Shown: piece by piece, positions 20,036 through 42,642 of the stretch
Layout: every line of letters starts with the position of its first letter
Position numbering within the stretch: the stretch's first letter is position 1
Assembly (NCBI GenBank): GCA_963969595.1
Contig: OZ018408.1
Span: forward strand, 33,790,108-33,854,107
DNA: 64,000 nucleotides
Origin: Neckera pumila
Taxonomy: Eukaryota; Streptophyta; Bryopsida; Hypnales; Neckeraceae
Reading direction: 5' to 3'
Position numbers and translations under genes: made by a program
The notes under the pieces: generated by a model
What the model was told of the DNA's origin: nothing
Database searches by the model: none
What the model saw: the letters and a program-made list of their open reading frames with translations, nothing else

Positions 20036-20071
20036 AAGACCCTGCTCCAAGCTCCATTTGCAAAACGGGTA

Positions 20072-20762: not shown

Positions 20763-21312
20763 CCCCTAATTGCTCAAGCGACCATTTTATGGTCGCTGCT
20801 TGACTTCCAGCAAAATTTTCGGGCAAAAAAATAAAATGATTTTTTTATTTTTTTATTTTTTTTTTGCAAAAGATTGGGTTGTCTATCAATGTTTATACTC
20901 AAAACTCAGATCGCTACGGTCAAACAAAAACTATAAGAGAAATAGCACAAAGTGTCTAGATATGTCTAGTGTTGAAAAACTTACTATATGGGAAAAGTAT
21001 TGGTGTTCTCATTACTAGATCTCATGCATTTTTTCACAAATCAATTGAAACCACAATTTTGACCAATCCAAAAAATTCAAATGCTAAAAATAGAAATTGT
21101 ATTTTTGGTGAATTTTTGAAGTTATACCTTCAAAATTCATTTAAAAAAAATCTAGAAATAATTTTATAATTTTGACCATACGGATGCTTTCTACTTGTTG
21201 TGCTTCACATTATCTTCTTTGGTGTGTTTTTGTGTTTCTGTTGATGTGCAGGGAATTTCAAACTTATAACAACTCTTCTTTGTTTTCATTCATATTTTCA
21301 CCATCAACATAG
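20763..21312. other. Possible left part of a TTAA element; no gene
   Basis: TTAA at 20759-20762 is followed by CCCCTAATTGCTCAAGCGACC-like sequence and a small hairpin. No matching right end is found before the 20.5-kb element begins, so this may be the interrupted target or an old fragment. Confidence 0.3.
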
Positions 21313-21334
21313 AATTAGGCATTTTTGCACTTGG
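21313..21334 (+). repeat. Left terminal inverted repeat of the 20.5-kb element
   Basis: Begins AATTAGGCATTTTTGCAC. A second GCACTTGG follows at about 21348, in the same orientation. Confidence 0.75.
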
Positions 21335-21613
21335 GGGGCGTGCGATTGCACTTGGCTAATACACCATCCAAAACAATCAACTTGAAATGTCGAGGGGGGG
21401 CATATTTTCAATAACATCAATCATTGTTTGTAAGGAAAATTGTTCAATGAATGTTTGTTAAATTTTCCATACTTTATAATTACTTTATGAAAACCTTTCA
21501 TACATTCAACTCCACACTATTTAGAAGGCACGTTACTATGCACTTCACATTCGTGCATGTCTACATATCTAAAACTAGAAGGTCAAAAGCACTCTGCAAA
21601 ATACAATGCTTCA

Positions 21614-22348
21614 CTAATACATATTCAAATCATTCTGCAAACGTTCGTCATCTAGGTCCTCCATTTGCATTGCTATGTATTCCAAAAGATGTGGTTTTGC
21701 GTCATGTGGAATGATCACTGTCTTCTCTGTTTGTACACCATATATTGTAACGTTCGAACCTACAATGTGACCACTTCTCCCTCGACGAGCGACATCCATC
21801 CATGAATATATAGCGGCTTCTTTGTCAATCCAGGAAAAATTCTCACCAGATGGTTCCCACATTGATTCCAAGCAGTTTGTATACCTCACTCTGTTACTAC
21901 GTGCTTCTTCCTGTGCTCCAGATCCCATTGTAGGCCAATACCACAGGACCTTCATCTTCGAGGCCCTTCTTCCCTGACCAAATTCAAGCACCTTCCCTAA
22001 AAAAAAAGGTACCCCTTCTCTTACTTCCGTCCTCTCTACAGTGAGAGCTACATATTGGCCAACAACAACGTCATTCTCTGGATTGAATGGAGGGAAAGGA
22101 TCTTCATTTGCATCATCTGGGGTCTCTGGTACAACTTCATTTCTTCGGCCTCTAATCCTCCCTCCTGTCACTCTCCGTGATGCTTCCGGTGGAGGTCTAT
22201 CTTTGCGGGGTCCAAAATACCCCCTCCTCTCAGGATTTGGCATTGTCGCCATAATCAAGTCAACGGCTACACTATCGGTTCCGTTCCCATCCGTGCCGGC
22301 TACTGCGTTTAAACTCGTACCTCCTTCTTCGACATCCGGAACAATACA
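21614..22348 (-). CDS. C-terminal part of the DUF7869 protein (frame-shifted exon)
   Basis: The frame is open from 22348; the first ATG is near 22252. It encodes a basic Arg-rich linker, then a compact module (VVVGQYVAL, PFFLGKVLEF, MKVLWYWP) resembling the small barrel-like C-terminal module of DUF7869 proteins, and a short acidic tail. The preceding 779-codon frame stops at 22309 in a frame one base away. A 50-nt GT-AG interval (22352-22303) would join the two frames exactly (GAG, then GTA GCC GGC), but this is short for a plant intron. Otherwise it is a frameshift mutation. I read it as the same gene as 22309-24648, not a separate protein. Confidence 0.65.
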   Translation of the reverse strand, partial: CIVPDVEEGGTSLNAVAGTDGNGTDSVAVDLIMATMPNPERRGYFGPRKDRPPPEASRRVTGGRIRGRRNEVVPETPDDANEDPFPPFNPENDVVVGQYVALTVERTEVREGVPFFLGKVLEFGQGRRASKMKVLWYWPTMGSGAQEEARSNRVRYTNCLESMWEPSGENFSWIDKEAAIYSWMDVARRGRSGHIVGSNVTIYGVQTEKTVIIPHDAKPHLLEYIAMQMEDLDDERLQNDLNMY

Positions 22349-24648
22349 CTACCCTCGTTCTGGTTCAAGACGTTGCTGGGCCAAAACGGTAAATCATGGA
22401 AGCCTTCTCTGCTCCGTCCTGGGAAGTCCTCCAAATAGTCTTTGAATTCCTTTGTTTCGTCCATGACTTCCATGTCCCTCATCCGATTGTGGCCTCTCAA
22501 CACCATCTTCTCTTTATATGCTATGAACTCGTCCAGTGCTTTCAATTCTCTTTGATCAGCTGGGAACACCTCTGCGAGGTCAGGTTTCTCTGCTACGTTT
22601 GGTACTGAGTTCAAACACAAATGTCCTCCTGTTGGGCCCCACTCATCTGAGCAAAACTGTTTATGTTGCACACGGACCAACCCATTTTCCACGTAAAATC
22701 TCATATGGTGTGGAAATGTTATGCCTGTGAGTTGTTCCCCTCCTCGTAGCAAATGCGGTGTGATGAATGCTTTCCAATTTCGAATATGCTCAAGTTTGTG
22801 AGCACTCACAAAAGCCTCTGTGTACGACGTTCCTTTCTCCACCAGCTGTAACATCTCATCCAATGTATCTATGTCTTTCCTCTTTAGTACGTTGGATATC
22901 ACACTGAATCTCTGATCAATATCCTCATGCGTGTGGCCCACTATCAGAAAACAAAGATGCACTTCCTTGAAGAAACCAAGCCCAACCAGTGCAGCACACA
23001 TGGCGAACATGTAGATGTTCTTGTTCTCCCTCGTGGTGTTGTCCGCTTGAATCCTCAACGTTGGCGGCAATGATCCCTTGCGTCGCTTCACGTCGCATAT
23101 GACGTTCATCACTGATGTTATGACTTGATTGCTATCGTGCTTGTGGTGAGCATCTATCCACACGTCTGCATCCATGCCAATCCCATGTACAAGTACACCA
23201 CACAGATGAGTCTTCACAAATCGAGATTCAATATTCTTCACAGTCTGCCTCATCTTTGGTATCATGGTCGTATTTTGATCCATACCATCCACAATTAAAC
23301 ACATGAAAATGCCCGGAGTGATCATGGCAGACCTCTTGAACAACCAATAATCTCGCCTCTCTTCCATTTGATATCGGATGTGTAGCACATACAACTCTTT
23401 TATCTTCACCTTTGCTATTGCATTTGTTGTAGACTCCATCCCACACTTATATTCCCAACAGTGATAGCACTTTGAGAATCTAGAGAAAGGCGGTATTTGC
23501 ACGTGCGGGAATTCCGTGCGCCAAAGTCGACGGAAAGAACTCATTGACAATTCCGATCCATCCACTAATTTCTTCACTTCTTCATTCACGTACCGAAAAA
23601 CATCCAACTTTGTCGTATTCATGGGCAATAGAATCAATGGTAACACCGCATTGTCCATCTTCCTTCGTATCGAGCGATGTGGTTGTTGACATCCAGCTTC
23701 ATTCACAAAAATGTTGAGGCTTTCCCTAGTAGCTGACATTTTCGCACTTTCCCTTCTTTGGCATGTATTTCCATGAACGGCTGCCACTCTGCCGTATACA
23801 ATATGTGATGTCTTCAATTGCTTGAAACGCCTCTGGGAATAACCCAACGCTGCGGCATAGCATGCATTGCAAACCACCATGCCATCCAACTTTGTCACGT
23901 ACTTGTCTCTTGTTGACCCCTCTATGCGAGTGTAGAAAGCATTCAGCATTTGTAAAATCCACGTACTCCTTGCTTCGTACTTTTGACCCCAAGCCATATA
24001 CCGTTGATCCAAAATATATTTTGGATCCACATCTTGTAAGCAATTGCGTTTGCAAGCCCCTTTATCCTTTGCGAGCAAGACACTTTCAAGAGTAACTTTT
24101 ACACTAGCTGATTCCCCCCTCTCTCTTGGATTTCTCAACCTCGGCCTTCGATTTGCCATTGAATAATTCCTCCTTGGCGTATCTAGCGGGATCCCTTCCA
24201 CTCTGCTTCCATTAGGAGTACTTCCTCCAGATCCTTGCGTCGTATGAGAACTTCTTTCCGTTGTGCTCCTTTCACCATGACTTGGCGAAGTCATGTTAGA
24301 ATTGCTAGCATTCCCTTCTATGTCCTGAAAATCAAACTGTGGTGTCTGGACAGGAGGAAAGGAGAAATTCTGCGCCTCCCTCGAATTACTATTGTTTGTT
24401 CTCACTTCTGAAGGATGTGGCATGCGGACCAAAGATTGGCGCCATCGTATGACCTTCCCTATACAATCGCCTAGTAACTTCCCCACCACCTCACCAACCC
24501 ATTTGGTTCCATCTATTGCATGTGTAACACGAACCGCAACTTCAAAAGGACATAACTTCACTTGGTGAAGTTCCATACCACATGTAATACTCGTATCCAC
24601 TACACCAACACCGACAACGTTACCATTGTCCTCAATAAGTTGAACCAT
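22309..24648 (-). CDS. DUF7869 protein, candidate transposase of the 20.5-kb element
   Basis: A 779-codon frame. The N-terminal segment (VVGVGVVDTSITCG...WVGEVVGKLLGDCIGKVIRW) resembles small domains seen in plant CACTA-associated proteins (weak). A Cys-containing region follows (CYHCWEYKCG). The C-terminal half has the DUF7869 hallmarks: VDGMDQ (residues about 454-459), QADNTTRENKN and VGHTHEDIDQRFS. These three acidic blocks are spaced as in RNase H-fold DDE/D nucleases, so strand transfer is a reasonable inference, not shown. An in-frame extension upstream starts at a well-placed ATG (24819-24817) and is broken by one TGA at 24708-24706, 37 codons later. The gene is therefore probably damaged. 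Confidence 0.75.
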   Translation of the reverse strand: MVQLIEDNGNVVGVGVVDTSITCGMELHQVKLCPFEVAVRVTHAIDGTKWVGEVVGKLLGDCIGKVIRWRQSLVRMPHPSEVRTNNSNSREAQNFSFPPVQTPQFDFQDIEGNASNSNMTSPSHGERSTTERSSHTTQGSGGSTPNGSRVEGIPLDTPRRNYSMANRRPRLRNPRERGESASVKVTLESVLLAKDKGACKRNCLQDVDPKYILDQRYMAWGQKYEARSTWILQMLNAFYTRIEGSTRDKYVTKLDGMVVCNACYAAALGYSQRRFKQLKTSHIVYGRVAAVHGNTCQRRESAKMSATRESLNIFVNEAGCQQPHRSIRRKMDNAVLPLILLPMNTTKLDVFRYVNEEVKKLVDGSELSMSSFRRLWRTEFPHVQIPPFSRFSKCYHCWEYKCGMESTTNAIAKVKIKELYVLHIRYQMEERRDYWLFKRSAMITPGIFMCLIVDGMDQNTTMIPKMRQTVKNIESRFVKTHLCGVLVHGIGMDADVWIDAHHKHDSNQVITSVMNVICDVKRRKGSLPPTLRIQADNTTRENKNIYMFAMCAALVGLGFFKEVHLCFLIVGHTHEDIDQRFSVISNVLKRKDIDTLDEMLQLVEKGTSYTEAFVSAHKLEHIRNWKAFITPHLLRGGEQLTGITFPHHMRFYVENGLVRVQHKQFCSDEWGPTGGHLCLNSVPNVAEKPDLAEVFPADQRELKALDEFIAYKEKMVLRGHNRMRDMEVMDETKEFKDYLEDFPGRSREGFHDLPFWPSNVLNQNEGSVLFRMSKKEVRV

Positions 24649-24705
24649 CCCATTAGCAGACTGGGAGATTCCATTGGTAGGTTCATTTACTCCATCTTCA
24701 AAAAG

Positions 24706-24819
24706 TCAACCTCGTACCACACGCACGAGCCTTTCCCCCACGCTCTTTTGTTCTATTCCGACCACCGTACTGCCTATGACATGGAATGACACCGGACTTC
24801 CAAAAGCTTGTGTTGCCAT
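24706..24819 (-). pseudogene. N-terminal extension of the DUF7869 gene ended by TGA
   Basis: ATG at 24819 (G at -3 and G at +4) opens 37 codons in the same frame as the 779-codon frame. TGA at 24706-24708 follows, then 19 further open codons to the next ATG. This looks like the original start with one nonsense change. Translation could restart at 24648. Confidence 0.55.
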
Positions 24820-27361
24820 TTCATTTAATCAATTGTACGCAAAAATATTTCACTTGCTCATAAATAGTCCGCTTGTTTTGTCTTCGCGATCAATTGTGTA
24901 CACTGTATTTCCAAATGAATACAAGAAATTCAAAACATGCCTAGTATAACTTTCAAAAAAATAAAATACTTGCAACAACATCAATGAAGGAGTTCCTTTG
25001 ATACTAAAATTTAACAAGAACCATATGCTAATTCTTCTTCATAGCTTTGTATTTTCTATTTCATGAGTGTCATTTCCCGTAGATGTACAACATTTCATAT
25101 ATTCCTCCAACAATTTCAATCAACCTGAGAATTGAGTACTACACTTCTTACAAAACATGAAGGTCCTATTTCACAACACAAAATCCACCTCCATGGTAAT
25201 TGGATCATAAAATTTTGCAGTCCTACGAATTCTATAATTCAAGCTCTACTGACACGATAAACAAGGATAACATTTTGAAGTGCAACAATTTCTAGAAAGT
25301 CGTAGGGAGTTGTTCAAAATTAATTTGTATCATGCATACAACCTCATCCTCTGTTATATTGGGGATACAATTTTCAATTCTCAACTTCCATAGTTCATTT
25401 TAATCCCTACATATATCATGGGGCCTGTAAATAATCTACATGTGCTGTACTATATGTATTCAACATTACATCTTTCTATGAGTTCTTCCATTAAATACCG
25501 ATTACATTATGCATTTGAAATAGAAATTGTCCTTATTGTGCAACTCAAATAAAAATTGAAAGTACTGTTTTCCCTTATCAAAGGAATTTCTCCATGTGTT
25601 TAAAAAAAATAAATTGAAAACATGGTATTGGTAGAGATGAGAGCCACCCGCCATTTTCGATGAACACTGCATACGGTTCTTAGTTTTAGCATTAGAAATT
25701 CTTTTTGCCCTACTAAGTTTGATGTTCCTTCTATTAGGAGAGGAAGAGCACATCATGAAAACTGACATCACCTTCACTTTCATCAAACAATTTTTTTTTT
25801 ATTATTTATTCTATTCTTCAATGATTTTGTTCTTAATTTATTACTTCTCCACGAAGGTTGGCCACATAAAATTCTATCAGCATTATAAAATAGGCCCAGT
25901 ATCTTCTGAGCAGTACATAAAAATAAGAAATCCTTCACCAAATCAATAGTACCCAAAAGCTTTACCGCAACTGAAAGATTTTATTATCTACATTTATGTT
26001 AGTCATTAGCATTTTTGAAGAAAGAAATGACTGAAGAATTCAATTTTTGAGGCTTCTCCACCATTTGCATTGCATACAAAATAAACAAAACTCTTCATTT
26101 TCAATCCTTCAGAGATTGTTATATACAAATAATTTGAAGTTAGAAAAGAAAACTATACTATTAATAGCTCTAATATCGAATTAATACACAACAATCCCAA
26201 ATATGTGAGTCTCCCAATCATCAAATCTGTCCTTTTCTACAAAAGAACAGATATTTTTTTGAAACATGGCATTCATAAATGAATTCCAAAATTTAGAGTT
26301 AAAAAGATTCTGCAATTTCCTACACAGCAAGATTGTCCTTACCTTTCAAATCACTAGTTTCAATGCAATGAAGGAAAGTTTAATATATAGTCAAATATAT
26401 AATGAACTCTACAATAAACAATTACAAAATACATAAAATACTTTTCTTTTCTTAAATTCTTGGAGTGCCTTTGCAGTAACTTCTTGGACTTCAAATAGCA
26501 TTACCTTCGCTCTTGATCACCAACTGAACTATAAATTATATTCCCGTATGCATATATGTTTAACTATTCCTATAAATAGTTTACAATATTTAGTCCATTA
26601 ATTGAGATCAAAGAAGAGCGTTCTAAATCCAAAGAGTGAACCGTATGGATTATAAGACTCCAGCGGTTGTAAAGACTCATACTCTATAATGATTACTGTA
26701 CTATATGTTGCTTCCCTTGAAGAAGTTGGATACACAAAATAGAAGTGCATTCTTGGGTTGCTAAGGACAATATTGTTGTTTCTGCTTCATGTCTAATAAA
26801 CAAAATTTCAAAAAAACAAATAATTCGTTTGCACTAGAGCATAAAAAAGATACCACAAAAACTATTCGAATGTCTACAACTCCTCTTCAAATTGCTAATT
26901 CTTTGAAGATGCACCCATGAGAGATAGTAAAAAGTAATTGGGCTATAATAGTGCTCACTGTATTAATTCAACAAATTAATAAAAAAAAATCCATCTTATA
27001 CATTCTGTTCACCTTTTTCTTTTTATATGAACTTCTCAAACCTTGCAACTCGGAGTTTTAGTACTACATGGCCAAAATGGAATTAATGGAACGAAGAAAA
27101 TTCACAATTACATTTTCATGTTACAAAAATTTCAATTAGATCATTCTATTATTCCAAAACTTAAATTACTATATATTTTTCAATAAAAGAAAGAAAAATA
27201 AGACTTCAAATTCAACATCCTATGTAAAAGTTACTTGAAGGAGGCAAACAAAAAAATATGCAAGCCATGAAAGGTTCATACTCACAATTCAAAACACCAC
27301 GCAATAAAATGTACAAGCACAAACCTCCTAGAATTTAAAATGACACATTCTTTCTAGGTAC
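24820..27361. other. Gene-free AT-rich interior of the 20.5-kb element
   Basis: No frame with coding character, RNA gene or clear terminal repeat. It may include 5' untranslated sequence or introns of the leftward transcript. Confidence 0.45.
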
Positions 27362-27936
27362 CCCCTAAAGTCGTAAAGCCCTTTCTCTTTCAAAAATCAC
27401 TGAAAACTGCTCCTTTTTTTGCTTTCAACTTCAACATCATAAAAATATTTTTACTTTAACCTACCGACAGGATCTTGTACTAAACTTCTTACAAATCATG
27501 TGGTACAATTTCTGTGATGTTAGACTTTAAGGGTTGACAGATATCAGCATTCAAATTGAAAGAAAAAGTTATTTTCAAGAAGATGCTTTCATTGCCCTGA
27601 AAATAAGAAACTCTGTAACTTTCAAATCACTAATGAAAATGAAATGAATCAAAGCTTCCTCCTTAGACAAAATTATAATCTATTAGAAAAAAATAATGAA
27701 AAAATATTTTTAAATTTTTTCAGGATTTTTTTTGGTGCCTGGTTTCCCCCACTCTGAGGTTATTGTAGCATAACTTTTGTTCCTGAGCATTGATTGAAAT
27801 AAAGATTACATCCCTTGAAAGCTTATAAGTTTTCATACCTTGTGGGAAAGTTTAAAAAGTTTTACCAAAAATGAAGTTCATAGAAACCTGCCCAAGATCC
27901 ACTTTGTCCCCTATAGGGAGAATGGGACTTCTAGGA
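27362..27936. mobile_element. TTAA-family MITE, 575 bp, nested
   Basis: Its right end is followed by TTAA at 27937-27940. The ends CCCCTAAAGTCGTAAAG and ATGGGACTTCTAGGA match the 15626-16199 copy, and the length is the same within one base. The left TTAA is lost (GGTA), so this is an older copy. Confidence 0.65.
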
Positions 27937-28811
27937 TTAATTGAATTGTTATTTGTAATTGTGCTCAAATTCTTAATTCTTATTTGTAATTGTTTACCAG
28001 CCTTGCATTGTTGTGAAAGTCAAAACCCCTAAAGGGCCAATATGCATTTCTGGTCTACATACAAAATTTAAGAAGGTATGTGTACCTACAGATTTTCAAA
28101 TTGTAATCCCAAATTCTAATGAAAAAGTAGGGATGACGAGTATCTTTTATATGCACTACATTTGTTGACATTTGGAAATACAAGTAAAAAATTAATGCCT
28201 CATATGTTTTTTTTTATAAATAACTGGCTAAACTGGGTAGTCCGGACAGTTTTTAAAATATCACTTTTCCGAAAACTAATATCCACTTTTGGTCTTCAAG
28301 AGTTATAAACACCACAAATGTTTGAATCATTCCATTTTAATCAATCAATTTAAAGTCTTCAGGATTTCTCATCTGCGGACAATTATGAATTCTATATTTC
28401 TGAAATAAGCTTTCAAGCCCATTATCGTACATTTGTACTCAACTTACAATATTTTAAAAAACAATAAACTCATAGGATGAAGATTGTTTATTACAACATT
28501 GCATTTATTGGGATTGTTATTTTTCAATTCTATAATTAAACTCTTAATAATTCAGTATTTTGAATCAATCTCTACAACTACCTATTTCCTATATTTCTTG
28601 CAAATACGTTGTACTTGTACAATTCCAAATGATGTGAATTTTCAAAAAAATAGGGCCAACATGTATTGGAAAAATAATAATAGGCTCAAATTTTTTTCAT
28701 ATAAATGTGAGCTTGTTGAATTTTTGTTGCCCTATTTTTTGCCAGGCCCAAAAAAATTTGCTCAATCCTAAAGTTACATATAGCAAAGACAGTTTTTTCA
28801 ATGTAGTGGTA
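27937..28811. other. Gene-free AT-rich interior
   Basis: Nothing coding or structured is recognised between the two nested MITEs. Confidence 0.45.
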
Positions 28812-29094
28812 AAGTAGGATGCTCTAAAAGCGACCATTTAAGAGCTGCTCCGCATTATCTGTAGATTTGCATAAACAGAAATATTTTAAATTCATTTTCC
28901 AAATACAAAAAAATGGATGCAGAATGTAATATACGCGGTTTCATGTTTTATGTAAGCATTTTTTGAATTAGTTGAAGATTTCCTAAGATTTCTGTTGTAG
29001 GTATCTATTTGAGACCCTAGGTCTCAAAAAATGCGTCTACTTACAACTTCTAAAGAAATGAAGGACAATTATTGGCTCTTGCAATAAAGAATAC

Positions 29095-29125
<31 letters not shown>

Positions 29126-29224
29126 ATGACTACAGTGGTCAATTTTAAAACCAACTCATATCTATGAAGTACCATTTTATAGGATTCATTTCAAGAAACC
29201 AGTCGCTTTTCGAGGATCCTACCT
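28812..29224. mobile_element. TA-flanked MITE, family A copy 4, with a G21 tract
   Basis: The ends AAGTAGGATGCTCTAAAAG and GTCGCTTTTCGAGGATCCTACCT (fewer shared inner bases) are flanked by TA. Positions 29103-29123 are 21 consecutive G. The copy at 20072 has six G at the equivalent position. Confidence 0.75.
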
Positions 29225-30026
29225 TACTTGTTCAAAACATGACTGTCAAATGAGCGTTCTCATTTGAACATTAGTCAAAGTTTCATAGGAGTTAAAATTA
29301 TTTCAAAAATATGTTTTACCTTAAACTTGCTCAGTTCTATAGAATGAAGTTCACTCTTCCACAGCCCGAGAACCTTCCACAGAACGGAAAAGAACCAGAC
29401 CAGAGAACGCAAAAGAACCAGAGCAGAGAACGCAAAAGAACCAGAGCATCATTCGCGCAACAAAATCGCACAACTGCAAGTAGTGACGAAACCCTAATGC
29501 AAGCAACTGCACTTCTCCGAATCCAGAGTACCTGTTCACTAGGAAACGAAATGTACACAGACTGACTCTCTTTCGAGATTCCCGTACTTTGCGAAGAGAG
29601 ACCCGTGAGAGATAGGTTCGACAAGACATTTTCTTTTGAAATTCAAGTTCCACAGGCAGTCTAAAGAGATAGGTTGAAGGAAGACTTCGGAGTACTGATC
29701 ACAGACGTTTCGCAACTCAGTTTTTAGTTTTTAGTTTTTTCAATTTTGCGACAAGTCCACGCTCAGGTGAAACCTCATGGTCTTTCAACTGGATTGTACA
29801 TTACTTTTCTTCTTATACTCTAAATCCTATTCGCTTCTTCTGAAATCCTGTTTGACTAACGACCAATTCACAGAATTCGAGCCGCACCGTGAGTTTGTTG
29901 TTTGCGGAGAACGCGTGCAGCACAGACATTCAATCGGTGGAGCACAAGTCGGCAAAAGAGAAGGTGAGATTTCCAAATCCTATAAGTCTAAACCGAATTT
30001 GTGAGATTCTTTTTTTTTCTTCGGCA

Positions 30027-30068
30027 ATGAACAGTGAACCTCCGCGCGCACGGAGGTTCACTGTTCAT
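30027..30068. repeat. Palindrome 1 of a tandem pair
   Basis: ATGAACAGTGAACCTCCG and its exact complement enclose the six-base loop CGCGCA. It nearly duplicates 30092-30129. Confidence 0.95.
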
Positions 30069-30091
30069 GAACAAAAAAAAATTTCAAAAAT

Positions 30092-30129
30092 GAACAGTGA
30101 ACCTCCGCGCGCGCGGAGGTTCACTGTTC
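30092..30129. repeat. Palindrome 2 of a tandem pair, 38 bp perfect
   Basis: GAACAGTGAACCTCCGCGC is followed immediately by its full reverse complement. The unit has the same sequence as palindrome 1 apart from the centre. Confidence 0.95.
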
Positions 30130-31750
30130 CTCGAGAAGGGGGGCGCGAGAGTTTGTTCTGAAAGTTGAAAACAAAAAAGAAGAGTGAGTGTGAGTTCTAG
30201 GGTTACCTGCGCCGGAGGTCGACTTCTTCACCGCTGCTGTCACCCGTCGCCGCACGCCCGTCGCCCGTCGTCGCAGCTCTGGTTCGTCGCCGCAGTTGCG
30301 GTTGCATTTCTGAATCCGGCACTCTTAGGCGTCCTGTGAGATCGGGTGCTGTTCCGTCATTGTTGCCTTGCAGATGGACAAGGTGCCACCTTCACAAGAG
30401 AAACACAGTTTTTTTCAACTTTGCTCGTTTTGATCACATTGTTCTCTGAAAGCTTGTTATGTGAAGCTCATTGATCTGTAGAGTGAGAGAGGACAGATTA
30501 GAAGCTCGCAGGAAGAGCAAGAACGAGAGAAGGAATTTGGTGAGGTCAATTCAAAATTTTGGGTGTGTCAGGAAACAAGCACTCCGATACACTACGAAAT
30601 TTGAAATAACAGGGCACACAAGTAGGTAGACTGAGATCTCTTCAAATAATCACATTTGGCAATTGTCGATCACAGTGAGGTCGCTGGTAACTTAGTGACA
30701 GAGAAGGTAAGGTCAAAGAGTTTAGAAATCATCACCTGAAATTTCGAATTCAATGGTGAGATTTTTAGGTGGGGACGCTGAAGTGGAGGGCGCCGGAGCT
30801 TCTTCACTGCATTTGCGAAGCAGATCCGAGCTTCTTCTTCAAGCCGGCGGAAGTTTACAAGGGGTCGCAGAAGGGGTCGCAAATTCTGACGTGCTAAAAG
30901 TGTTCTACGAAGTTGGACAGTAGACCCATAGGTATGCTGATGTATTTACGAAACTAAATCTATGTGCACCAATTCTGCTTCGTAATCCCATTTCTTGAAT
31001 TCTTGAATATTCTATCAAAATGTGACTCCAGAAGACTTTTACGTCACCAACCTAAAACACTAATCTAAAACAATAATTCTAAGTGTCATGAGAAGACTGC
31101 GCATGCTAGTCCTTGCAATGTAAACCAGAAGGTGGGGAGGTACATGAGCCAAGACGTGGCTGACTAGATTTTTCAGGCAGGTGGGCCAGTTCTTCACGTT
31201 GGAGGATTTGGCGAGGAATTTGCAAGGGCCGAGTGTGTTTGTGCAAAACAAGTTGACAGCAGATTAAAAAAAAAACTGCTTGCGGAAGGTGCTGAGACTG
31301 TGGACGTTATTGGGAAGTTTGCAGGAATTGGGGTGCTACGGTGGAGGGTTTCCGTGTGACTGTCCTGGTCAGGAGCCACTCGCTACTGGGTCAGACCTTG
31401 GAATTTGTCAGTGAAAAAGAGAGGACGACTGTGCCCTATCTAGGATTAGGTAAGAAAAGATCTAAGTTCCCATTTCAGAGTCCGCTTCAATGGCACATTT
31501 TCACGAGAATTTGGAAGAGAACAGTACAGGATTCACGTCATTGGAAAGGCCCTGCTTACGTAGCCGCCACCTTTTAGACATCAATGAAATTGTTGTAGTA
31601 ATACGTTGCCAAAACAATGTATCCAAACTCGTAATTCTTCATCATTTGTTTGATGTTTGTCTTGGAAAACGGATTACAGGATATAACATTCCCTCTTACA
31701 GTACTTGTGGACAGATTTTTGGTGGATACAGGAGTTTCCATTCCGTGTAA

Positions 31751-34700
31751 CTCTATTAGAAAAGGTTAATCCCTGAACGTCTCAATCCAACTTTTGGCAC
31801 TTTTTTGCTTGTATCTTACCATACGAACATCATGCACTGGAATTTCATGAATTTCATCATTAAGGAGGGTTTTCTTTTTTAGATTCAAGTATTACATTGC
31901 ATGAATGAGAATTAAGCTGGACAAAGCCGTGCCTCAAAGCCTTCTATTAAGTGTCCAAAATTTGGACATCTGAGTGATTTAGGGTTAAAAATATTATCTC
32001 AGGGTCAAATTTTGAACATGAGAAGGAATTGTACACGTAATTGATGTTTTAATATGCTTTATTTAATTGTCATCCATGAAGAATCCCTGTGGTGAAATAA
32101 AACTTTGATTAAGAAGTTATTTGAGATATTAGAGACCTAGACGGGGTTACTAAAAATTACTTACATTGTCCTTTGAAAACTTAAATGTGACAAGCTTAGA
32201 ACCTTAGGTATTGTTCGTGAGTATAGAAGGAGAAAATGAAGACCATTCCTACAAGCTTGGAATCCACTCGTTGCCGCTTCCTCTACATTTGTGTTGGAAG
32301 ATGTTAGGTTTTCCACATCTGCTAATTTAGAATTGCCACTTCCATGTTTTTTTTTCTTAATAGAATTGAACCTTCGTATGTCTGATTTCTTTTGGTTTTA
32401 ATCTATGAAATCAATGAATAAATTTGTATTTACAAATGAGAAATTATGTTTCTGGTGTTGATTAAGTTATCTACTTGGTATTGTGTACAATTATAGCAAA
32501 GAACAAAAATCTTTAGGCTGTTAGGTAATGGTACTTGTTTCAAGCTTCTGTTGCTAGCCATTCAATCAATGAGTCGTCCATTCAATAGTTTTTAGTGGAT
32601 TGTAATTAATACCATAGAATTGCTTTGAATTTGAAAAGAACTAAAAATTTAAAAAAAATTCTAAGAATGTTATTGAAATGCAATCACTTTACTATTTTCA
32701 TTGAGAGAAGGCAATTACTATATTCATGGCTAATAAATAATTTAGATATTCAATTTGGCTATTATTTTAGGCCATCAATTTTCAGTTAATTTTAAGTTAG
32801 GACGTTCTTTAGGTCACCTTTTTACAGTTGAAGTTAAATGTGGGTTGGTGTACAATTTCGAAATTTATTCATTTTTTTTTTCCTAAAAGACAAATTAAAT
32901 TTGCAGTGAGTATTATTTAACATGTATCCTCCTCAAAAATCCATAGTTCCTATAGTTGTACCTTTCTTCCTCTAAAACAAAAAACTTATATGTTTAGACC
33001 AATAGGATGATCAAAAATATATAGTTTGTTGTTATTTATACTTTTTACGTTTTTGATGAATTTCCATCCGTGACAAATGTCAAAGTCCAAAGAATAATGA
33101 ATTCATTATTATTTCATTCAGAATTATAAATGGAAATGAAAAATAAAATTAAAGTTAACATTATTATTTTGATACTACAAATAATGAATTGCATTTGTCG
33201 ATGGTGTGATTATGCTAATTGACGTTGAATGTTCCGGTTATAGAACAAAATAGGGAATATTTTCAAGTGCCATCAGAAGCATTTGTTGAGCTTATAGTGG
33301 ATAGTATAAACTTCTATAGAACATGTTTTTAGAACCTTGTACTCTATGATGTAATTGAATGCTATTCAATGAAGGAATCTTTAAAAATTGATTAGAATTG
33401 ATAATGAAAATGCATTTGCAAAGTGCATGATTACTTCTAGACAAAAAAATGAAGAGTTACATCCTGATTGCATGAAAGCAATAAATTTTGATTGATTGTA
33501 GAAGCCTCCTTCACTACTGACTCAATAGAAAAGGGATATACATGTAAATGTTGTGTACACTTCTTTATAAGGATATTTTCATGGCTATTTAGAAGTGCAA
33601 TCTTTAAAATGAAATTATCTCATATTATTCAAATAATATGTTTTGGTATGATGTATTAAAACCTATGTTGTTTTTATAAATTTAAAATTAGTTGATCCAT
33701 AGAAATTAGAGCACATTTGTTTTTGTCTTACATGGTTTTATATTTTTAACTAGTGCCCCCAACATAAATTATTGGATTCAATTTTTGGATTTGTGGTACT
33801 CAATGAAAGTGTTATTACTTTGTTCAATGATCATAAAATTGAAGGTCATCCAAGAATGTTTTAGATGTTTAGAAATCTTATTACAAGACTGAGATTATTG
33901 CCAACAATTATTTTTGAATGCGTTATGATCAAAGGCATTGCTTTAGTTCAAGTAACTAATGATGCAATTGTTTTTGTGAAGTAGGTTTGGAGAAAAAGCA
34001 ATTTTAGGAGCTTTACATGAAGGTTTTCTGCAAAACTAAGCTAGGTAAACTTCTTGCATTGGTTTAGAAATCAAAACCTCAATTTACCTTCTAATCCCTT
34101 GCAAATGCAGAAGATAAAGGAATGATCAAAACTCTAGCTTGTAGTCCAATTTATAGGAAATTGATGTAATATTTGAGACAGCAGTTGGCAAGTGGAGTAG
34201 ACCGTGATTATTAATTGACATGACCTTGATACAGTGAGTTTGTTGATGAATTGGTAAGCAGATTTGCAACTTTGCACGTAGTGAAAGATCAAAAGTGGTA
34301 GATGAAAAACATTTTAGCAATTCATGTGCTTCTTCATAGAATGCCATTTGACTATTATTTATGAAATTCACAATTATCAAAAATATTGTAGAACTGTATA
34401 TATAATTTCCACACCACATGTGACGTGTTTTTGAGGTTTGTTTGTACACTACCATGCTTTGTTTCATACTATGAATTTTGTGCTTCTTAAATGTCTCGTG
34501 CCATCTACATTGATCAATTTTAATTAAACGCTCCAAGATTTGAGTAGTGTCTTTGTTTTTTGAAGAAGTGGGCTTCAGGTGTTTGGAAAATAAATGGACT
34601 TATTTTATGTGAAGGTAAATGAGTGTGGGCCTTTCACTCCTCAGCAAAAAGATTTCAAAGGAAATTGAGGGGGAAAAGTTCGAAGTGAATATGGCTGTGA

Positions 34701-36774
34701 GAGGTACCTCAACTGATTAAGAGAACAAAGATCTTGGAAACTAAGTGTGGAAGCTTTGAAATCAAGAAGAGGAAGAGCGTTTGGATCAGGTATTACTCAG
34801 AATTTCTTGCTTATCCTTGCTCGGTTTTTAAGTGAGTACTGCATTATTAAATTGTAGAGGTCTATAGCAATGGTATTCAATTTGAAAAACAGACTTCTAA
34901 TGAGCGATATATAGCACCTGAAATTCAATAGTCCAGTAGAATGTTGTTTTAAAATTCTTGAAGAATTATTTTGAAAATGATGTCTACAAAAGGAATGTTG
35001 TGGAAGATGCTACAGCAAGACAATAGAACAAAGAGAACTCAATAATTTTTGGAGAATACAAGTTGTGATTTCCCCCTGAACGTCTATTGTTTTCATTTGC
35101 TTTGTTTTAGAGTGAACTGTTTCCGGAAAGCCATAATGATGGTAAAGTGCAGATGAATTAAAACATCCAAAAATGTCAAGTTCTCATATTTGCTTTACAT
35201 AATCAAAGTAATTACATAATGCGTGGGTCCTTATTATAAATACCATTGGAACTAATTTTAATGTGTTATTAGAATGAAGTATGTTGGGTTAGTAGATTGA
35301 GGTATTTGCTCACAAGAGGGAATGACATGTGTAAGAGCATAATAGTACAAAGGTGTAGGTCTCTATATAGAAACTGGTGTCATGGAATCTTAAAAAATAA
35401 AAGAAATGAAGTTGATTATGTAGATGTTTCAGATTCTTGAAGAAAAATCCATTCTGTTGTTTCACAATCATATGACTGAATTGCCATTTCAATTGTATTG
35501 TTCAGAATTGAAGTTTGTGCATTGCTTTATATATGTAATTGCTGATTGTTTTGCTTCACTAGTAGGAGATAAAGTATAAGTCTCTTTTAAAATACCTCAA
35601 TGTATAGAGGTTTGAGTATGTGATTGGGAAATAATTATAATTTTTTTTCCAGAACGTTGTTTTACTAGTTTTGAGAAGTTGCTTTTCTTGGAACTTGAGA
35701 ATACTTGCTAGTGGATGTTGAATAAAATATTTTGACTATTGGAAAAGGAAGTATTGAGACTCTTTCCATGAATGTTAAAACAAAAGGATTAGATTTTTAT
35801 TGGACAAGTAGTTGGTCTGTGTAGGTATGTATGAGTGAGAACTGAAATCTTAATTGTTTGCAATTAAGATTGGAAGACTGAATAGAAGAATAGGAATTTG
35901 AGTAGTGGCATGGTTATAGTTTATGAACTAATGTGTGAGGAACTTCATATTATACAGAACATACAAATTCAAATGTGGAGATCACTTATGTTATTATTCA
36001 TTTATAAAATTGATATTATGGTTCATTATGAAATTTGAAATATATAAAAGTAGTAATGTTAGGCCTATCACATAGGAAAACAGTTTTTGCAACATTACTT
36101 ACAAGCTTAGAACATTTTGTACCATTGAATGTAAGACATGTATAGTATATTGAGAGTATGGAACATATGTCATTATATGCAAAGTCTGTAAGTGAGTAGG
36201 TACACATTTTTATATTTTTGCATTAGTTCAACGGCATTACTACATTTACTCAAGCATTGATCTGTGATTCTGTAGAAGTTAATTTTGATTTTGCCTTTTG
36301 CTTTAGTGCTTGCTTTTACTTTATTTTATAGGCTTAAAATAATATACAAGGACAACCATGAGGATATTTACATATAGTTATATTCGAAGTTGTTACATAT
36401 GTCTTTCAACATATTAGTTGTATTATAGATTGAAGATTGAAGATTCATTGTGAATGTACGGAAGAAGTAACTGGATTATATTATTTGCATGTAGCACGAA
36501 TTCTTCAAAAAAAGATTATATTTTCCTATTGTGATTGGAGCGGGTGAAAGAAGTAAGAGTTATTAGTCATTATTTTTTCTAAAAACCTTCATGAATAGTA
36601 AGAACATGTGAAGAGAGTGTGTTCTTTTGAATCACTGAAAGCTTTACAAGAATACAATCATGTGTGAAAGAACCATTAAAATAAAATTCTTGAATTCATT
36701 GATGTGCTTGTTACAACTGTTATAGTCATTCCAAACTAATAAACGGTACGTGGATTTTTCATTGCTAAGGCATC
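31751..36774. other. Gene-free AT-rich interior
   Basis: About 5 kb without a supported gene. It may contain a 5' intron of the rightward transcript: just before the ATG at 36775 there is a pyrimidine-rich acceptor-like TTTTTCATTGCTAAG. Confidence 0.4.
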
Positions 36775-39700
36775 ATGGCACCAAGGGTGCATTCGACATG
36801 GTTGGAGCATGGATGGTGGATTGTAGCAAACGGTTCCGAGAAACCAACTTTATGGATTACGGAGTTTCCAATGAAAGCAGATCAATTTTGGACTGCTCTA
36901 GCTACCTCACGTGGAGTCATTGAGCGCTTCGCAGGCACCGCTGAAGGAGGAATGACAGTGTCTGTTACCAACATCGAATTGGTACTGGAGAGGTATAAAT
37001 TGAGGAAGAAGCTACTTCTGTCACCAGTTCCAGTGGAGCTCCTTCTTGTTAACTCTCCTATAAGCGGTTTGAGGGCTTTGGCAAAATTTTGGATGACTAT
37101 GCCAGAAGACGTGAAGGTTCAAAGAGAAGTTCGTGTTCAAAAATTCAAAGAATTCACCCCCGAACAAGCTTTGCAAGCACGGATTCGGTATAGGGATATG
37201 AGTGCCTATGAAGAACTTCGAAATACTAATCCTGCTGCTGCCGATGCAAGAGCTCCTCTAGCCGAACCAGAGGACACGGATGAAACGTACCGGCTTCTTG
37301 TAGTTCCTTTACAAGCCAATTGGATTCCAGTGTCTAAACGGAGTCGGAAGCGTGCTGCGGGCGAAGCAGAGAATGTAGAAGATGGGGGGGATGCATCTGA
37401 AAGGCAAAGAATACATCGTCAACGTCTTCTATCTACAGCAGTAGATGATGTAGGTGAACCCATGGTTGAGAGTGAAACTCAACAACATGAGGAGGGTAGA
37501 GTACAACAAAGTGCACCGGACATGCCACCATCAGAAAATGTAGAGGTGGAAAGGGAATCAAATGAACCTCTGAACACTGCATCTGATAATGTCGTAATAG
37601 GTGAAGAGGTCTTTCCCTCGGAAGTTCAAACAGCAGATGTAGGTGGAGCTCGAACTACACTCACGGAAGTGAGATCTGGGTCAAGGGCTCCAAGAGTTGG
37701 CTCTGGGAGTCGTATATATCAATCAGAAGTTGCTATGTCCAGAGGAAACACTTCAACATCTACTAGAGGTAGAGGACGTGGTGCTGGTAGTAAACGTATT
37801 GGCGGTAGAGGACGTGGTGAAACTGTAGCCGGAATGGAGGACTCTGCCGGAGAACCAAGAGGACGTGGTGCTGACAGAGGACGTGCTATTGGTAGAGGAC
37901 GTGGTAGATCTGTAGCCGGTGTGGAGAACATTGCTGAAGAACAAAGAGGATGTCGCACATCGGAAACGGGGATAGAGGAAGAGCAAAGGATGCAAACTCG
38001 CAATGCTGTCCGAAGACATCGTCAAAGAGCAGCCTCGCAAGGACCACCTCCACAAGGCAATGACGGCGAAGATACTATTGATGAAGATGAATCTTCGACG
38101 GGGGAACTGGAAGGGGAGCCAGAGCAGGAACCTGCAAGTGTATTGGAGAGAGGACATGCAAAATCAACAGTGACTTTTCCAACGGAGGCGCAATATAAGG
38201 ATGGGTACATATGGGGACATGATATAGTATTCCATGCAAGTATAAATAGCATTCGGAATGTAGCAAATGCAGAGACGAATCACAGAGTGCTCATGGACTG
38301 GCGTGTCGATGAAATATACGAGCGCCTGAAAGGATCAGATGCTGATGGAGTGAGTGCAATTACACTTCGTCCCATTGCATTTTTATACGAGAATACCAAT
38401 GAGGAAGGAGAGAAAGACTTGGTGGAGATTGGTTTCAGTCGAGAAGGTGCTGTCCGGGAATTTGAGTTTGCATTTACAAAACACTGTCCTGAGAATGCAG
38501 AGAATCCATCGCCTTCCATTAGTACAATGAGGACTCGATGGCTGCAACGGAATATCGTGTGGGAGCCAGTGGATGGGCAACATATCGTAGCTGCATGTAA
38601 ACGAGCTCAAGGAGAAAACGAAGAGGGGAAGATGTCTGATGAGGAGTACAGGAAGCGGTTTGCAAGGGGGAAAGCGAAGTTTGTAGTGTATAATAATCCA
38701 CAATTTTACATTGAAGCGTCGGTCAGAATAAATGCAAGGGAGTTTGACCGGAAGTTTTTCAGCACGTATTACGAAAATATCATAAAGCTACGAGATATTT
38801 GGAAAGCTTGTGGGAGTCCTAGTGCAGTTTTAAGAATTGATGACGAGCACAGAACCAAGGCACTGACAATGGCAGCGAGTGCATTGCACTTGAGTCAGGA
38901 TTTACCAAAGCATATGTCGCTTGGGGCGCTGTCAAAGAAAATGATTGACTATACACGACATGCTTGGAATGAAGACGAGGAATCTTACAAGGGGTTCTTA
39001 AAGGTGTGTAAAGATTATGAAGAGAGGAAGTTGTTTTTCAGCAAGAAGTCGGAGAACAAGTGGAAGAAGCAAGCAAGAGAAAAAAATCTTGATGTCACAG
39101 TGGATGGAACCTTGCAAAGGAAGAGGATGGAGAAGACATGGTTTAGACCTTTGAGCAGAGTTTCGAAGGAGACTTACGTACGTATAGTGAAACGAATGGT
39201 AGCCAAAGATGTGGTGAACGGGAAGCGCGGTGAACAGAATTACTACTTCAATAGTGCTGCTTCTGCGAATCCCCCAGTAGGTACCGTTGCATATGCAGTG
39301 GATCGTTTGCAAAGGAAGGATGCGGTGAGGAATCAAATCCGCTACTTGATGGTCGAAGCAGGGGATGAGAATCCATCATCGATGATGGAGTTTTTTGCCA
39401 TAGATGCCAGCAAGTATGGAGATGAGCATGGAAGTCAGTTCAGCTTAATGGGGAAGACACTGAATCCTGAAACTAAGATGTTGTGGAGTTCACCTACTGT
39501 ATCCACGGTTCAGTCGCTGAATAGTCATGTGAATCTAATTCCAGCGTTTGTGAGGCAGCACTTTACAGATATCAAAGAGGGCCGCAAAGGATATGCAGGC
39601 TATGGTCGGGATGTTGAAGATGTGTCAAATGCGCGTTGGGATTGGCAAGTGAAGTTCTCTACTGTGCAGCATCAAGAGAGAGAAGCAGTACATCACGTGA

Positions 39701-41292
39701 GGTGTAGAGGAGGGTTCTTCGAGGACAAATACGTTGAACTTGGTAAACCGTGTCTATGGATTTTTGATTGTAGACATGGAGGTTCAGAAGGTGTGGACGC
39801 AGCATGGTCCAATGATGACTACAGCAAGGTTGTACAACAACTTCAGAAGTGGATGTCTTCAATTTTACGATGGACTGCCATATTTCTCTTTCCAGCAGGC
39901 ACAGAATTTGACGAAGCAATGAAATCGAAGTTGGCTTTTCCAGATAACTTGTACTGTATGCGAGGTTCGTGGATATTTCAACCGCAAACCGTTTCTTCTT
40001 ATGTTCATGATCTGCGGCATGGTGCTCAAAGCGTACGCAAAGTGCAATCCATGGGGGACATCGCCATCATCATGCAATATCCTAGTGAGTCTGGACCTGA
40101 GGACAACCTTCCAAGAAACACAGACTATTTGAATGTGATGTTTCAGGACTCTTGGAGTACAGAAGTTATGCCGCGAGCGGAGGACAAGCTTGAGAGGACA
40201 CCAATGGAGTTGAAGAGGATGGTGCACATGTATCTACCACCTAATTGGGGACTGGTGACGTTGGGGATCACAGTAGCTGTGCCAGGGATTTTAGAGACAG
40301 GTTTTGTTGGCAGTGACATTATCATCATGGAAGGCGGAACGGCTCGTACACAATCTGTGTACAATGCATTGCAGCGGATGTACGGAGATAAAATGGTGAT
40401 GGTAAACAGTACAAGCACAACAGCCGAGCGCAGGTCCTCGCAGAGATCGTCACCTGGTCTTGGGCCTTCCGAAGCAAATGCAAGTATACCCCGTGGTAGG
40501 CTTGAAAGAGTAGTGCAATCATCAAGTGACTCGCCAGATAGAGAAGAGAGATTTGAAGTGCGTGAACGGGAGAAGAGGAAGGGGAAAGCGATTGCCGTTG
40601 ATTCTGGAGCTTCATCAACAAGTAACGATGCTAGTAATCCAGATCGCACACACACAGATGATTTACCTAGTGGTGGCCGAAGCTTGGGCTCAAGGGACAC
40701 CGATGCTGAAAGCGATGCCCGCGGAGACTTAGCAGATATCATGGAAGTAGAAGAGGACCCGACATATGCGCCTGGAGAGAATGCTGGTGATTTGGAGAAT
40801 GAAGAAATAGAAGGTGTTGAAACGGACGTGGGGGAAATTGCTGGTGACTTGGAGAACGAAGAAGTAGAAGGTGTTGAAACGGACGTGGGGGAAATTGAAG
40901 GTACACCTGCCAGAACAGAATCCTTGTCAACGTTATCACCTTACAGCTTTTTGAATTATGAACCGTTGCTTTTAGGCGAGGACTGGTATTTTTATGATAG
41001 GGAGAACATACGACATGTTCGTCATGGTAATGATGAAGGACCTCACACATATGAGCGAGTGAGTTCTATCTTGGAAGCACCTACTCTATCCCCAACTTTA
41101 TCAGAGGGAGTACCATCGCCCATTGCAAGTGCTATGGTGGATAGGGCATTGCAATACGCCTCTCCTCCTCCACTGAGTCCAGTTGGCGGACAAAGTGTAA
41201 ATGAAGAAACAAAGACAGTTCGTGGAGGAGAAGCGGAAGACTTGACACATTCATCACCACACGTATTGGAGACACCAGATGAAGCAATTTAG
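36775..41292 (+). CDS. 1505-residue ParB-like and methyltransferase-like transposon protein
   Basis: A single intact exon with a good start context (A at -3, G at +4). Order: an unrecognised N-terminal domain (1-190); charged linker; RG-rich repeats (about 322-390); and a ParB/Srx-like region (about 495-650) with VDEIYERL...LRPIAF, VDGQHIVAACK (DGQH at 600-603) and a following GKAKFVVY strand. A Lys-rich helical region comes next, then a segment ordered like class-beta amino-methyltransferases: LWIFDCRHG (998-1003) where DPPY is expected, FLFPAG, RTPMELKRM (1141-) like the TQKP-ELL helix, and a degenerate Gly motif ending IIIMEGG (E1186). The catalytic DPPY and FxGxG are not preserved, so it is probably inactive as a methylase but may bind DNA or nucleotide. 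The acidic tail has a duplicated unit. Function inferred only. Confidence 0.8.
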   Translation: MAPRVHSTWLEHGWWIVANGSEKPTLWITEFPMKADQFWTALATSRGVIERFAGTAEGGMTVSVTNIELVLERYKLRKKLLLSPVPVELLLVNSPISGLRALAKFWMTMPEDVKVQREVRVQKFKEFTPEQALQARIRYRDMSAYEELRNTNPAAADARAPLAEPEDTDETYRLLVVPLQANWIPVSKRSRKRAAGEAENVEDGGDASERQRIHRQRLLSTAVDDVGEPMVESETQQHEEGRVQQSAPDMPPSENVEVERESNEPLNTASDNVVIGEEVFPSEVQTADVGGARTTLTEVRSGSRAPRVGSGSRIYQSEVAMSRGNTSTSTRGRGRGAGSKRIGGRGRGETVAGMEDSAGEPRGRGADRGRAIGRGRGRSVAGVENIAEEQRGCRTSETGIEEEQRMQTRNAVRRHRQRAASQGPPPQGNDGEDTIDEDESSTGELEGEPEQEPASVLERGHAKSTVTFPTEAQYKDGYIWGHDIVFHASINSIRNVANAETNHRVLMDWRVDEIYERLKGSDADGVSAITLRPIAFLYENTNEEGEKDLVEIGFSREGAVREFEFAFTKHCPENAENPSPSISTMRTRWLQRNIVWEPVDGQHIVAACKRAQGENEEGKMSDEEYRKRFARGKAKFVVYNNPQFYIEASVRINAREFDRKFFSTYYENIIKLRDIWKACGSPSAVLRIDDEHRTKALTMAASALHLSQDLPKHMSLGALSKKMIDYTRHAWNEDEESYKGFLKVCKDYEERKLFFSKKSENKWKKQAREKNLDVTVDGTLQRKRMEKTWFRPLSRVSKETYVRIVKRMVAKDVVNGKRGEQNYYFNSAASANPPVGTVAYAVDRLQRKDAVRNQIRYLMVEAGDENPSSMMEFFAIDASKYGDEHGSQFSLMGKTLNPETKMLWSSPTVSTVQSLNSHVNLIPAFVRQHFTDIKEGRKGYAGYGRDVEDVSNARWDWQVKFSTVQHQEREAVHHVRCRGGFFEDKYVELGKPCLWIFDCRHGGSEGVDAAWSNDDYSKVVQQLQKWMSSILRWTAIFLFPAGTEFDEAMKSKLAFPDNLYCMRGSWIFQPQTVSSYVHDLRHGAQSVRKVQSMGDIAIIMQYPSESGPEDNLPRNTDYLNVMFQDSWSTEVMPRAEDKLERTPMELKRMVHMYLPPNWGLVTLGITVAVPGILETGFVGSDIIIMEGGTARTQSVYNALQRMYGDKMVMVNSTSTTAERRSSQRSSPGLGPSEANASIPRGRLERVVQSSSDSPDREERFEVREREKRKGKAIAVDSGASSTSNDASNPDRTHTDDLPSGGRSLGSRDTDAESDARGDLADIMEVEEDPTYAPGENAGDLENEEIEGVETDVGEIAGDLENEEVEGVETDVGEIEGTPARTESLSTLSPYSFLNYEPLLLGEDWYFYDRENIRHVRHGNDEGPHTYERVSSILEAPTLSPTLSEGVPSPIASAMVDRALQYASPPPLSPVGGQSVNEETKTVRGGEAEDLTHSSPHVLETPDEAI
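40783..40896 (+). repeat. In-frame 57-bp direct duplication in the 1505-residue gene
   Basis: Two adjacent 57-bp copies encode AGDLENEEIEGVETDVGEI-type acidic 19-residue units, with only a few differences. Confidence 0.9.
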
Positions 41293-41800
41293 TAATTGGA
41301 GGTCATTGTGGTGCATGTGACGTTACTATAGGATGTATAGAAGTGTGGTTTTAGGGTGTGTTTGTTTTGAAAGTGTCGGTAGATGTTGAAGTGGTTTTTT
41401 TATGTGTTTTGTGAATGAGATCTTTGAAATGAGAGGATATGGGTTATGTCTTCAATATAATTTTGATTACCTAAATAAATTTTCCTGTGATTAGTGTGAT
41501 TTTTTGTTTTTCATGTGTTATTGGCAAAAAAACGATATGATATGATTGTAATTGCACTTCACTGTATTGAAAAATTAAAATATAGAGAAAAAAAAAGGAA
41601 GAGAGATAAGACAAACATGTATTCTATACTTGTTCAGCCTAAAAGTAATGTAGGAAACATCCCCATACAAAATTTGTATGCATAAGTGAAGCGGTCAAAG
41701 ATTTAAAAAAAGCAAAGTATTCTTAAAAAACTTTGGGGTACTCAACTTTTCAACAAAAACAATTTTAATGAATAGTAATGCATACGGTCAGTGCACTTGG
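41293..41800 (+). other. 3' flank of the 1505-residue gene, inside the element
   Basis: AT-rich. It contains AATATAA and AAATAAA stretches that could serve as polyadenylation signals, and runs directly into the right terminal repeat. Confidence 0.4.
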
Positions 41801-41822
41801 CCAAGTGCAAAAATGTCTAATT
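41801..41822 (-). repeat. Right terminal inverted repeat of the 20.5-kb element
   Basis: The complement of the left end with one mismatch. With the adjoining inner GCACTTGG (41793-41800) it forms the palindrome GCACTTGGCCAAGTGC. Confidence 0.75.
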
Positions 41823-42642
41823 TAGTGTTCATCCTGGAAGTGTGTTTATTGGATTTGGCACCTGCTCAAAGAGTCACATGGAATCAAATGCAATTGAATG
41901 ATGTGCATTGTGTGGATCTTCATGCCTCTAAGGTGACTTCCTAAACTTAAATGATTTATAGGAATTACAAGACCAGGTGCTAATACCATGGTTTTTCAAT
42001 GGTAGTCCATGTTTTAGATTTTCTTATTATATTTTCAAATTTATAGAAAAGTTGAGTACGTTAAAGGCCTTGATGTTTTTCATTGTAATGTATTTTGTTG
42101 GTAAATTTTTTGTATTGGTTTAATAGATTGTGCAAGATTATACATGCTGAGGTTGTCATGGGGAAGCATCCTCAACAATTGTCAAATCCAAAGAATGACA
42201 TTAGAAAACTCTTCTCTAAAATATCAATGTCTGCAATCCCTTCTTGCAAATTGTCAACTACAGTTTCTCTCTTATGGTAAGTATACACTGAATTCATTTG
42301 ATTGGCAATTTTATGATTTATTTATCAAAGATTATATGATGTTCATGCTTGTTTTCATTACATTTTAGGTTGAAAATACGAGTGGTGAGGATATTGAGAA
42401 GCTAAAATGTTACAAAAAAAGCCAAATATTTTAAAAGAATGAAAAAGGTCATTCCTTGGTAAGGTCATGTTCAATATTTTTTTATTGAATGTACAAATGT
42501 TAACAATTTACATTTTAATGATTTTAAATCTCACTTAAGCTTTGAATTAAATAATACCATACATATGAGTATTCTGTGTTATGATGAAATGATCTTAGAG
42601 ACATAGTTTTTTCATTTTGATTCAGAGATTTCAGAAGCTATC
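41823..42642. other. No gene recognised
   Basis: AT-rich flank outside the giant element. No strong frames or repeats. Confidence 0.45.

Follow-up and report, generated by a model that had tools for sequence, protein, structure and literature searches.

A two-gene element with AACA ends

The 64,000-nucleotide stretch of the Neckera pumila genome analysed here (the window) contains two long open reading frames (ORFs) on opposite strands, which raises the question of whether they travel together as one mobile element and, if so, by what means. As the initial annotation had observed, no ORF in the window is larger than these two (22309–24648, minus strand; 36775–41292, plus strand), and each faces its own end of a segment bounded by inverted repeats. 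The same annotation had placed the termini at 22-bp inverted repeats with one mismatch and had seen TAG flanking both outer sides. These repeats are genuine (21313–21334 and 41801–41822; two matches in none of 100 shuffles), but the true ends lie 7 bp further outward: the 15 copies with readable ends remain identical over this distance up to a terminal AACA, so the element spans 21306–41829 (20,524 bp, ends read across copies) and the target-site duplication is 4 bp. TAG itself falls within the inverted repeat and is ruled out as a target-site duplication, with 3-bp duplications in none of 13 copies and 4-bp ones instead. The features that define the two ends are as follows.

21302–21305, plus strand: left target-site duplication, CATC (4 bp, copy comparison)
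21306–21334, plus strand: left terminal inverted repeat, AACATAGAATTAGGCATTTTTGCACTTGG, conserved inward from AACA in all 15 copies whose ends could be read
21325–21355, plus strand: TTGCACTTGG twice in direct orientation at a spacing of 21 bp, in the left end (also present in an end alignment of 13 copies)
41792–41809, no strand: perfect 18-bp palindrome in the right end, TGCACTTGGCCAAGTGCA, an inverted pair of the TTGCACTTGG motif
41801–41829, minus strand: right terminal inverted repeat, AACACTAAATTAGACATTTTTGCACTTGG (copy comparison)
41830–41833, plus strand: right target-site duplication, CATC (4 bp, copy comparison)

The terminal inverted repeat of the element, AACANNNAATTAGRCATTTTTGCACTTGG, is 29 bp long, with 25–29 identical positions in nine copies. 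Sixteen copies were inspected at both ends; AACA terminates all 15 readable ones, and the sixteenth, a 1.7-kb remnant, lacks the outer 7 bp up to AACA. Perfect 4-bp duplications flank 11 of 13 copies in the main test and two further copies, C1s (ACAT/ACAT) and C3s (CATA/CATA), giving 13 of 15, the exceptions being C4a (TCAA/CCAA) and C6s (GTTC/CTAC). Among the 13 copies tested, none had a duplication of 3, 5, or 6 bp and one had a duplication of 2 bp. The duplicated sequences are mixed (CATC, CTTT, TCTC, AAGG, and others), and the ends are asymmetric: on the left TTGCACTTGG occurs twice in the same orientation, on the right as the inverted, palindromic pair.

The gene pair recurs in a mobile family

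When the 18 contigs (339.5 Mb) of the source genome were searched with the ends and both proteins, as had been proposed, many copies sharing ends and both genes emerged. The 201-bp left end matched at the best 40 of 111 candidate places and the 201-bp right end at the best 40 of 109, and among these listed matches 39 of 40 on either side start at the first base of the query. Pairing ends by hand from both lists, with partnerless end matches omitted, yielded at least 29 elements: 14 of 19.7–25.6 kb, 14 of 9.1–12.9 kb, and one of 1.7 kb. As the best candidates alone were scored, copy counts are lower bounds.

All nine long copies read hold both genes, divergently oriented and often with stops in the reading frames. 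The initial annotation had held that occurrence of the two genes elsewhere, independently and without these ends, would speak against a single unit. Among the matches listed, 40 of 62 second-gene places are paired with a DUF7869 place in divergent orientation, 11.3–18.6 kb apart (three genome searches pooled; 35 of 52 without the third), and use up 40 of the 58 listed DUF7869 places (best 58 of 710 candidates); two more neighbours lie ≤30 kb apart in another orientation. The same lists contain 22 second-gene and 18 DUF7869 places that are partnerless, and at least one place on the partnerless list (C2:46590558) does contain second-gene reading frames on reading. That 18 of the 58 DUF7869 places have no second-gene place within 30 kb would suit a chance neighbourhood, or two nested elements. 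However, the nine long copies carry both genes between shared ends, and the 40 divergent pairs are spread across three subfamilies (A, B, and C), compared with 0.64 neighbours expected by chance; we regard coincidence or nesting as a negligible prospect. The element is a two-gene transposon, one of a mobile family with common ends, target-site duplications, and a recurring gene pair, and the suggestion that it moves as one is supported by these ends and by the pairing of the genes in the long copies.

The subfamilies are linked at their ends: one subfamily-B element has a right end, and another a left end, about the same as in subfamily A. Within subfamily A (leaving aside C9, a copy near-identical to that of the window), coding sequences are 88–97% identical and the rest mostly 80–95%, with identity down to 46% in the central 2 kb, the fastest-diverging part. 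For tested pairs of more than 250 codons, dN/dS was 0.13–0.30 in both genes (0.54–0.62, on few changes, for the window–C9 pair); by this sequence measure, both genes show purifying selection. The short copies (six read) have in common with the full element ~0.5–1.3 kb of the left end, 0.7–1 kb of the right end, and small inner pieces; their interiors are of three kinds, largely unrelated to one another, and none of the six has an ORF of ≥200 aa.

The DUF7869 protein is a probable DDD transposase

22309–24648, minus strand: main ORF of the DUF7869 protein, a probable DDD transposase (Pfam match at residues 475–668; D454/D457, D536, D576/D578)
21614–22348, minus strand: DUF7869 protein, C-terminal portion; in the window copy its frame differs from that of the main ORF, and in C9 it belongs to one ORF

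In the window the DUF7869 ORF is interrupted, giving 798 + 244 aa between stops where C9 has 1071 aa; the two copies are ~98.7% identical in DNA. The structure model follows the RNase H order and D454/D457, D536, and D576/D578 are conserved, with E575 also nearby (31 of 37), making the protein a probable RNase H-fold recombinase with a conserved D-D-D and predicted catalysis. Of 42 relatives, 39 match the DUF7869 profile; the seven other families listed at an E-value of 0.1 were weak, with one member each, and none was a transposase. A literature search found no publications on DUF7869, an unnamed family that now gains a likely job, as a transposase whose DDD core is conserved. Within the coding sequence, a perfect palindrome of 22–28 bp (24006–24027 in the window) is present in eight of the nine long copies read; it may have arisen by chance and been held in place by coding constraint.

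The second protein has a ParB-like fold by model

36775–41292, plus strand: second gene, 1505 aa, with a ParB/sulfiredoxin-fold domain at about residues 472–680 (ORF, predicted structure)

The reading frame of the second gene runs uninterrupted for 1505 aa in the window copy, and its product had been annotated as ParB/methyltransferase-like. The first half of that description stands: ParB-N/Srx folds take ranks 1–19 in the fold comparison (Foldseek alone was not significant), and in its predicted structure the protein has the ParB/sulfiredoxin fold, in common with ParB/Noc/KorB proteins and sulfiredoxin. A GxxR box is the mark of CTP-switching ParB proteins, whereas this position reads DGQH in 18 of 18 second-protein rows. 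Also unlike ParB/Noc/KorB, the second protein belongs to a eukaryotic transposon and has no visible ParA-like companion: a scan of ORFs read without introns found no third ORF of ≥250 aa between the ends.

The methyltransferase half fared worse, finding no support from Pfam or NCBIfam scans of the protein, from Pfam or PHROGs scans of 17 relatives, or from a PDB sequence profile. In the Pfam scan of the relatives 13 weak families appeared, the best (E 0.002) a beta-helix repeat, and one relative came near a KDZ-associated cysteine cluster (E 0.12). Alignment with eight methyltransferases by hhalign gave a probability of 0.15%, and T4 Dam and RlmJ appeared in the fold search at E 4.8 and weaker only. 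Among the 18 rows, DCRR or DCRH replaces DPPY in all 13 that span this site, and FxGxG is absent from all 10 that span it; the model of the putative methyltransferase part, mostly at pLDDT <60, is too poor to judge. The weak hhalign match does cover a stretch resembling methyltransferase motif X. An accessory protein described for Ectocarpus Sola-1 (PMC12477816, accessible portion) likewise favours an active ParB–methyltransferase marking the element that encodes it, a role proposed for algal transposons, but given the motif replacements, the hhalign score, and the absence of a methyltransferase among the families listed for the 17 relatives, we consider such an enzyme quite improbable here.

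A central palindrome persists in gutted copies

30092–30129, no strand: central perfect 38-bp palindrome, GAACAGTGAACCTCCGCGCGCGCGGAGGTTCACTGTTC (palindrome scan, genome-wide count)
30029–30066, no strand: second copy of the central palindrome, differing from the perfect site by one mismatch (repeat and palindrome scan)

In 14 long elements, a palindrome of 38–44 bp lies at 0.31–0.45 of the length. Seven of the nine long copies read have a perfect version, 38–44 bp long in six and 30 bp in C2a; those of C5a and C3b contain mismatches. Genome-wide (339.5 Mb), 41 places match it with ≤3 mismatches and none matches a reversed control; 39 of the 41 are inside the 29 paired elements, and the remaining two have an unpaired right end at distances of 7 and 12 kb. 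Forming a conserved island within the fastest-changing central part, the palindrome is kept in 14 of 14 long and 12 of 14 short elements, and is missing from the tiny one. This retention in most copies, even gutted ones, suggests that it may be part of the transposition machinery, a cis site and a candidate target of the ParB-like protein. Counting against a universal role, the palindrome was not found at subfamily B or C places, and 10.7 kb read from the centre of one subfamily-B copy contain no perfect palindrome of ≥20 bp with >30% GC; at >35% GC, there is also none of ≥30 bp with ≤2 mismatches.

The base composition around the palindrome bears on two other readings. The cumulative GC-skew minimum is 160–833 bp away from it in nine long copies and 694–1383 bp in five short ones (median 689 bp over these 14 copies, C3s excluded, versus 3210 at random positions). 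Part of the GC skew in the long copies comes from coding sequence; in seven copies tested, the non-coding halves show the same change of sign in GC and TA skew around the palindrome. Outward transcription would give such a change, and the palindrome sits between divergent genes in the region that diverges fastest. All of this would fit a bidirectional promoter with the palindrome as its core or operator, autoregulated by the ParB-like protein and without a role in transposition. Set against this is its presence in the 12 short elements, the six short copies read having no sizeable ORF and largely unrelated interiors, an objection that is itself qualified by C3s, one of those six, which lacks the palindrome (18 mismatches). 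We hold a promoter role to be a reasonable possibility, if not the one we favour. The skew minimum, the large palindrome, and the modelled ParB fold could also indicate a replication origin or partition site, through which an extrachromosomal form would be kept as by ParB and parS and would re-enter the genome by means of the DDD enzyme. This we find unlikely, as transcription explains the skew equally well, the GxxR box is replaced, and the two genes are the sole long ORFs, with no replication protein or ParA-like partner seen among ORFs read without introns.

Relation to described transposons

CACTA/EnSpm and PIF/Harbinger elements have 3-bp target-site duplications (TNA in Harbinger), and neither fits, none of the 13 copies tested having a 3-bp duplication. 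Ginger1, in the accessible text of PMC2836005, is similar in its 4-bp duplication and integrase-like DDE fold; Ginger elements there start with TGTNR and Ginger1 targets CCGG/CCGT, whereas the moss element starts with AACA in all 15 readable copies, uses varied sites, and is far larger. The Sola superfamily, as described in the available parts of PMC10741241, PMC9033089, and PMC3627910, combines a DDD transposase, 4-bp duplications, and terminal inverted repeats of variable length; it is known from the moss Physcomitrella, with sizes sometimes >15 kb (PMC10741241, PMC9033089). The moss element agrees in its inverted repeat (29 bp, within the 11–1124 bp given for Sola), its 4-bp duplication in 13 of 15 copies, and, by model and conserved D residues, a DDD transposase with predicted catalysis. 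Sola2 elements differ in having AT-rich duplications (PMC3627910, same portion), those of the moss element being mixed.

The closest precedent is Sola1-1_Ec32 of Ectocarpus, in the accessible portion of PMC12477816 a 21.5-kb giant Sola-1 DNA transposon that carries, on the opposite strand, a gene whose 1104-aa product is a ParB-like/methyltransferase protein, similar proteins being cited for green and red algae. Size and opposite-strand gene with a ParB-like domain are about the same in the moss element, so its two-gene plan has a precedent, although the initial annotation had not recognised the pair as a described family. The Ectocarpus protein is described there with an N4mC/N6mA methyltransferase domain, whereas in the moss protein this part shows neither a detectable match nor a catalytic motif, and that portion of text does not mention a central palindrome, which the moss element has. 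In the literature searched, neither a central palindrome for such transposons nor a second protein without the methyltransferase motif was found described. Likened through these published descriptions rather than by transposase sequence, the element is probably a giant Sola1-type transposon; it extends the ParB-type accessory gene of algal transposons to a plant genome with many copies.

A model for mobilisation

We consider it likely that this is a giant two-gene DNA transposon, most plausibly of the Sola1 kind, with a DDD transposase and a ParB-like accessory factor. The DUF7869 protein would cut at the AACA ends and join them, with a stagger of 4 bp, to the target DNA. Its putative binding sites are the TTGCACTTGG motifs, paired directly on the left and in inverted orientation on the right. 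The ParB-like protein may act as an accessory factor for palindromic DNA, the central palindrome first, and help to mobilise the 20-kb element by spreading or bridging that brings the far-apart ends together; alternatively, it might control the two outward-reading genes. We infer catalysis, end binding, and palindrome binding alike. More tentatively, a centromere-like internal palindrome and the element's own ParB-type clamp might work as a cis/trans pair that is obligatory for moving a eukaryotic transposon of 20 kb. Such a clamp would load mid-element, far from the ends, and gather or mark the element, obliging even gutted derivatives to retain the site. Among the six short copies read, one is without it, which weakens this proposal. 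Persistence of the palindrome in most gene-less copies makes it testable whether a ParB fold can be a eukaryotic transposition factor.

Other features of the window

A direct repeat of ~0.4–0.5 kb, 79–87% identical in pieces, links 20068–20559, just outside the left end, with 28808–29200 near the centre of the element and is perhaps an older dispersed repeat. To the left of the element lie a long TGTT microsatellite of ~34 copies (10610–10749) and a Bromodomain-BET protein encoded in a single ORF (16280–17461). To its right, the ORF list contains two adjacent DnaJ-like genes (~47100–49700 and 56200–58700), similar to each other and split into exons, which are probably a tandem duplication.
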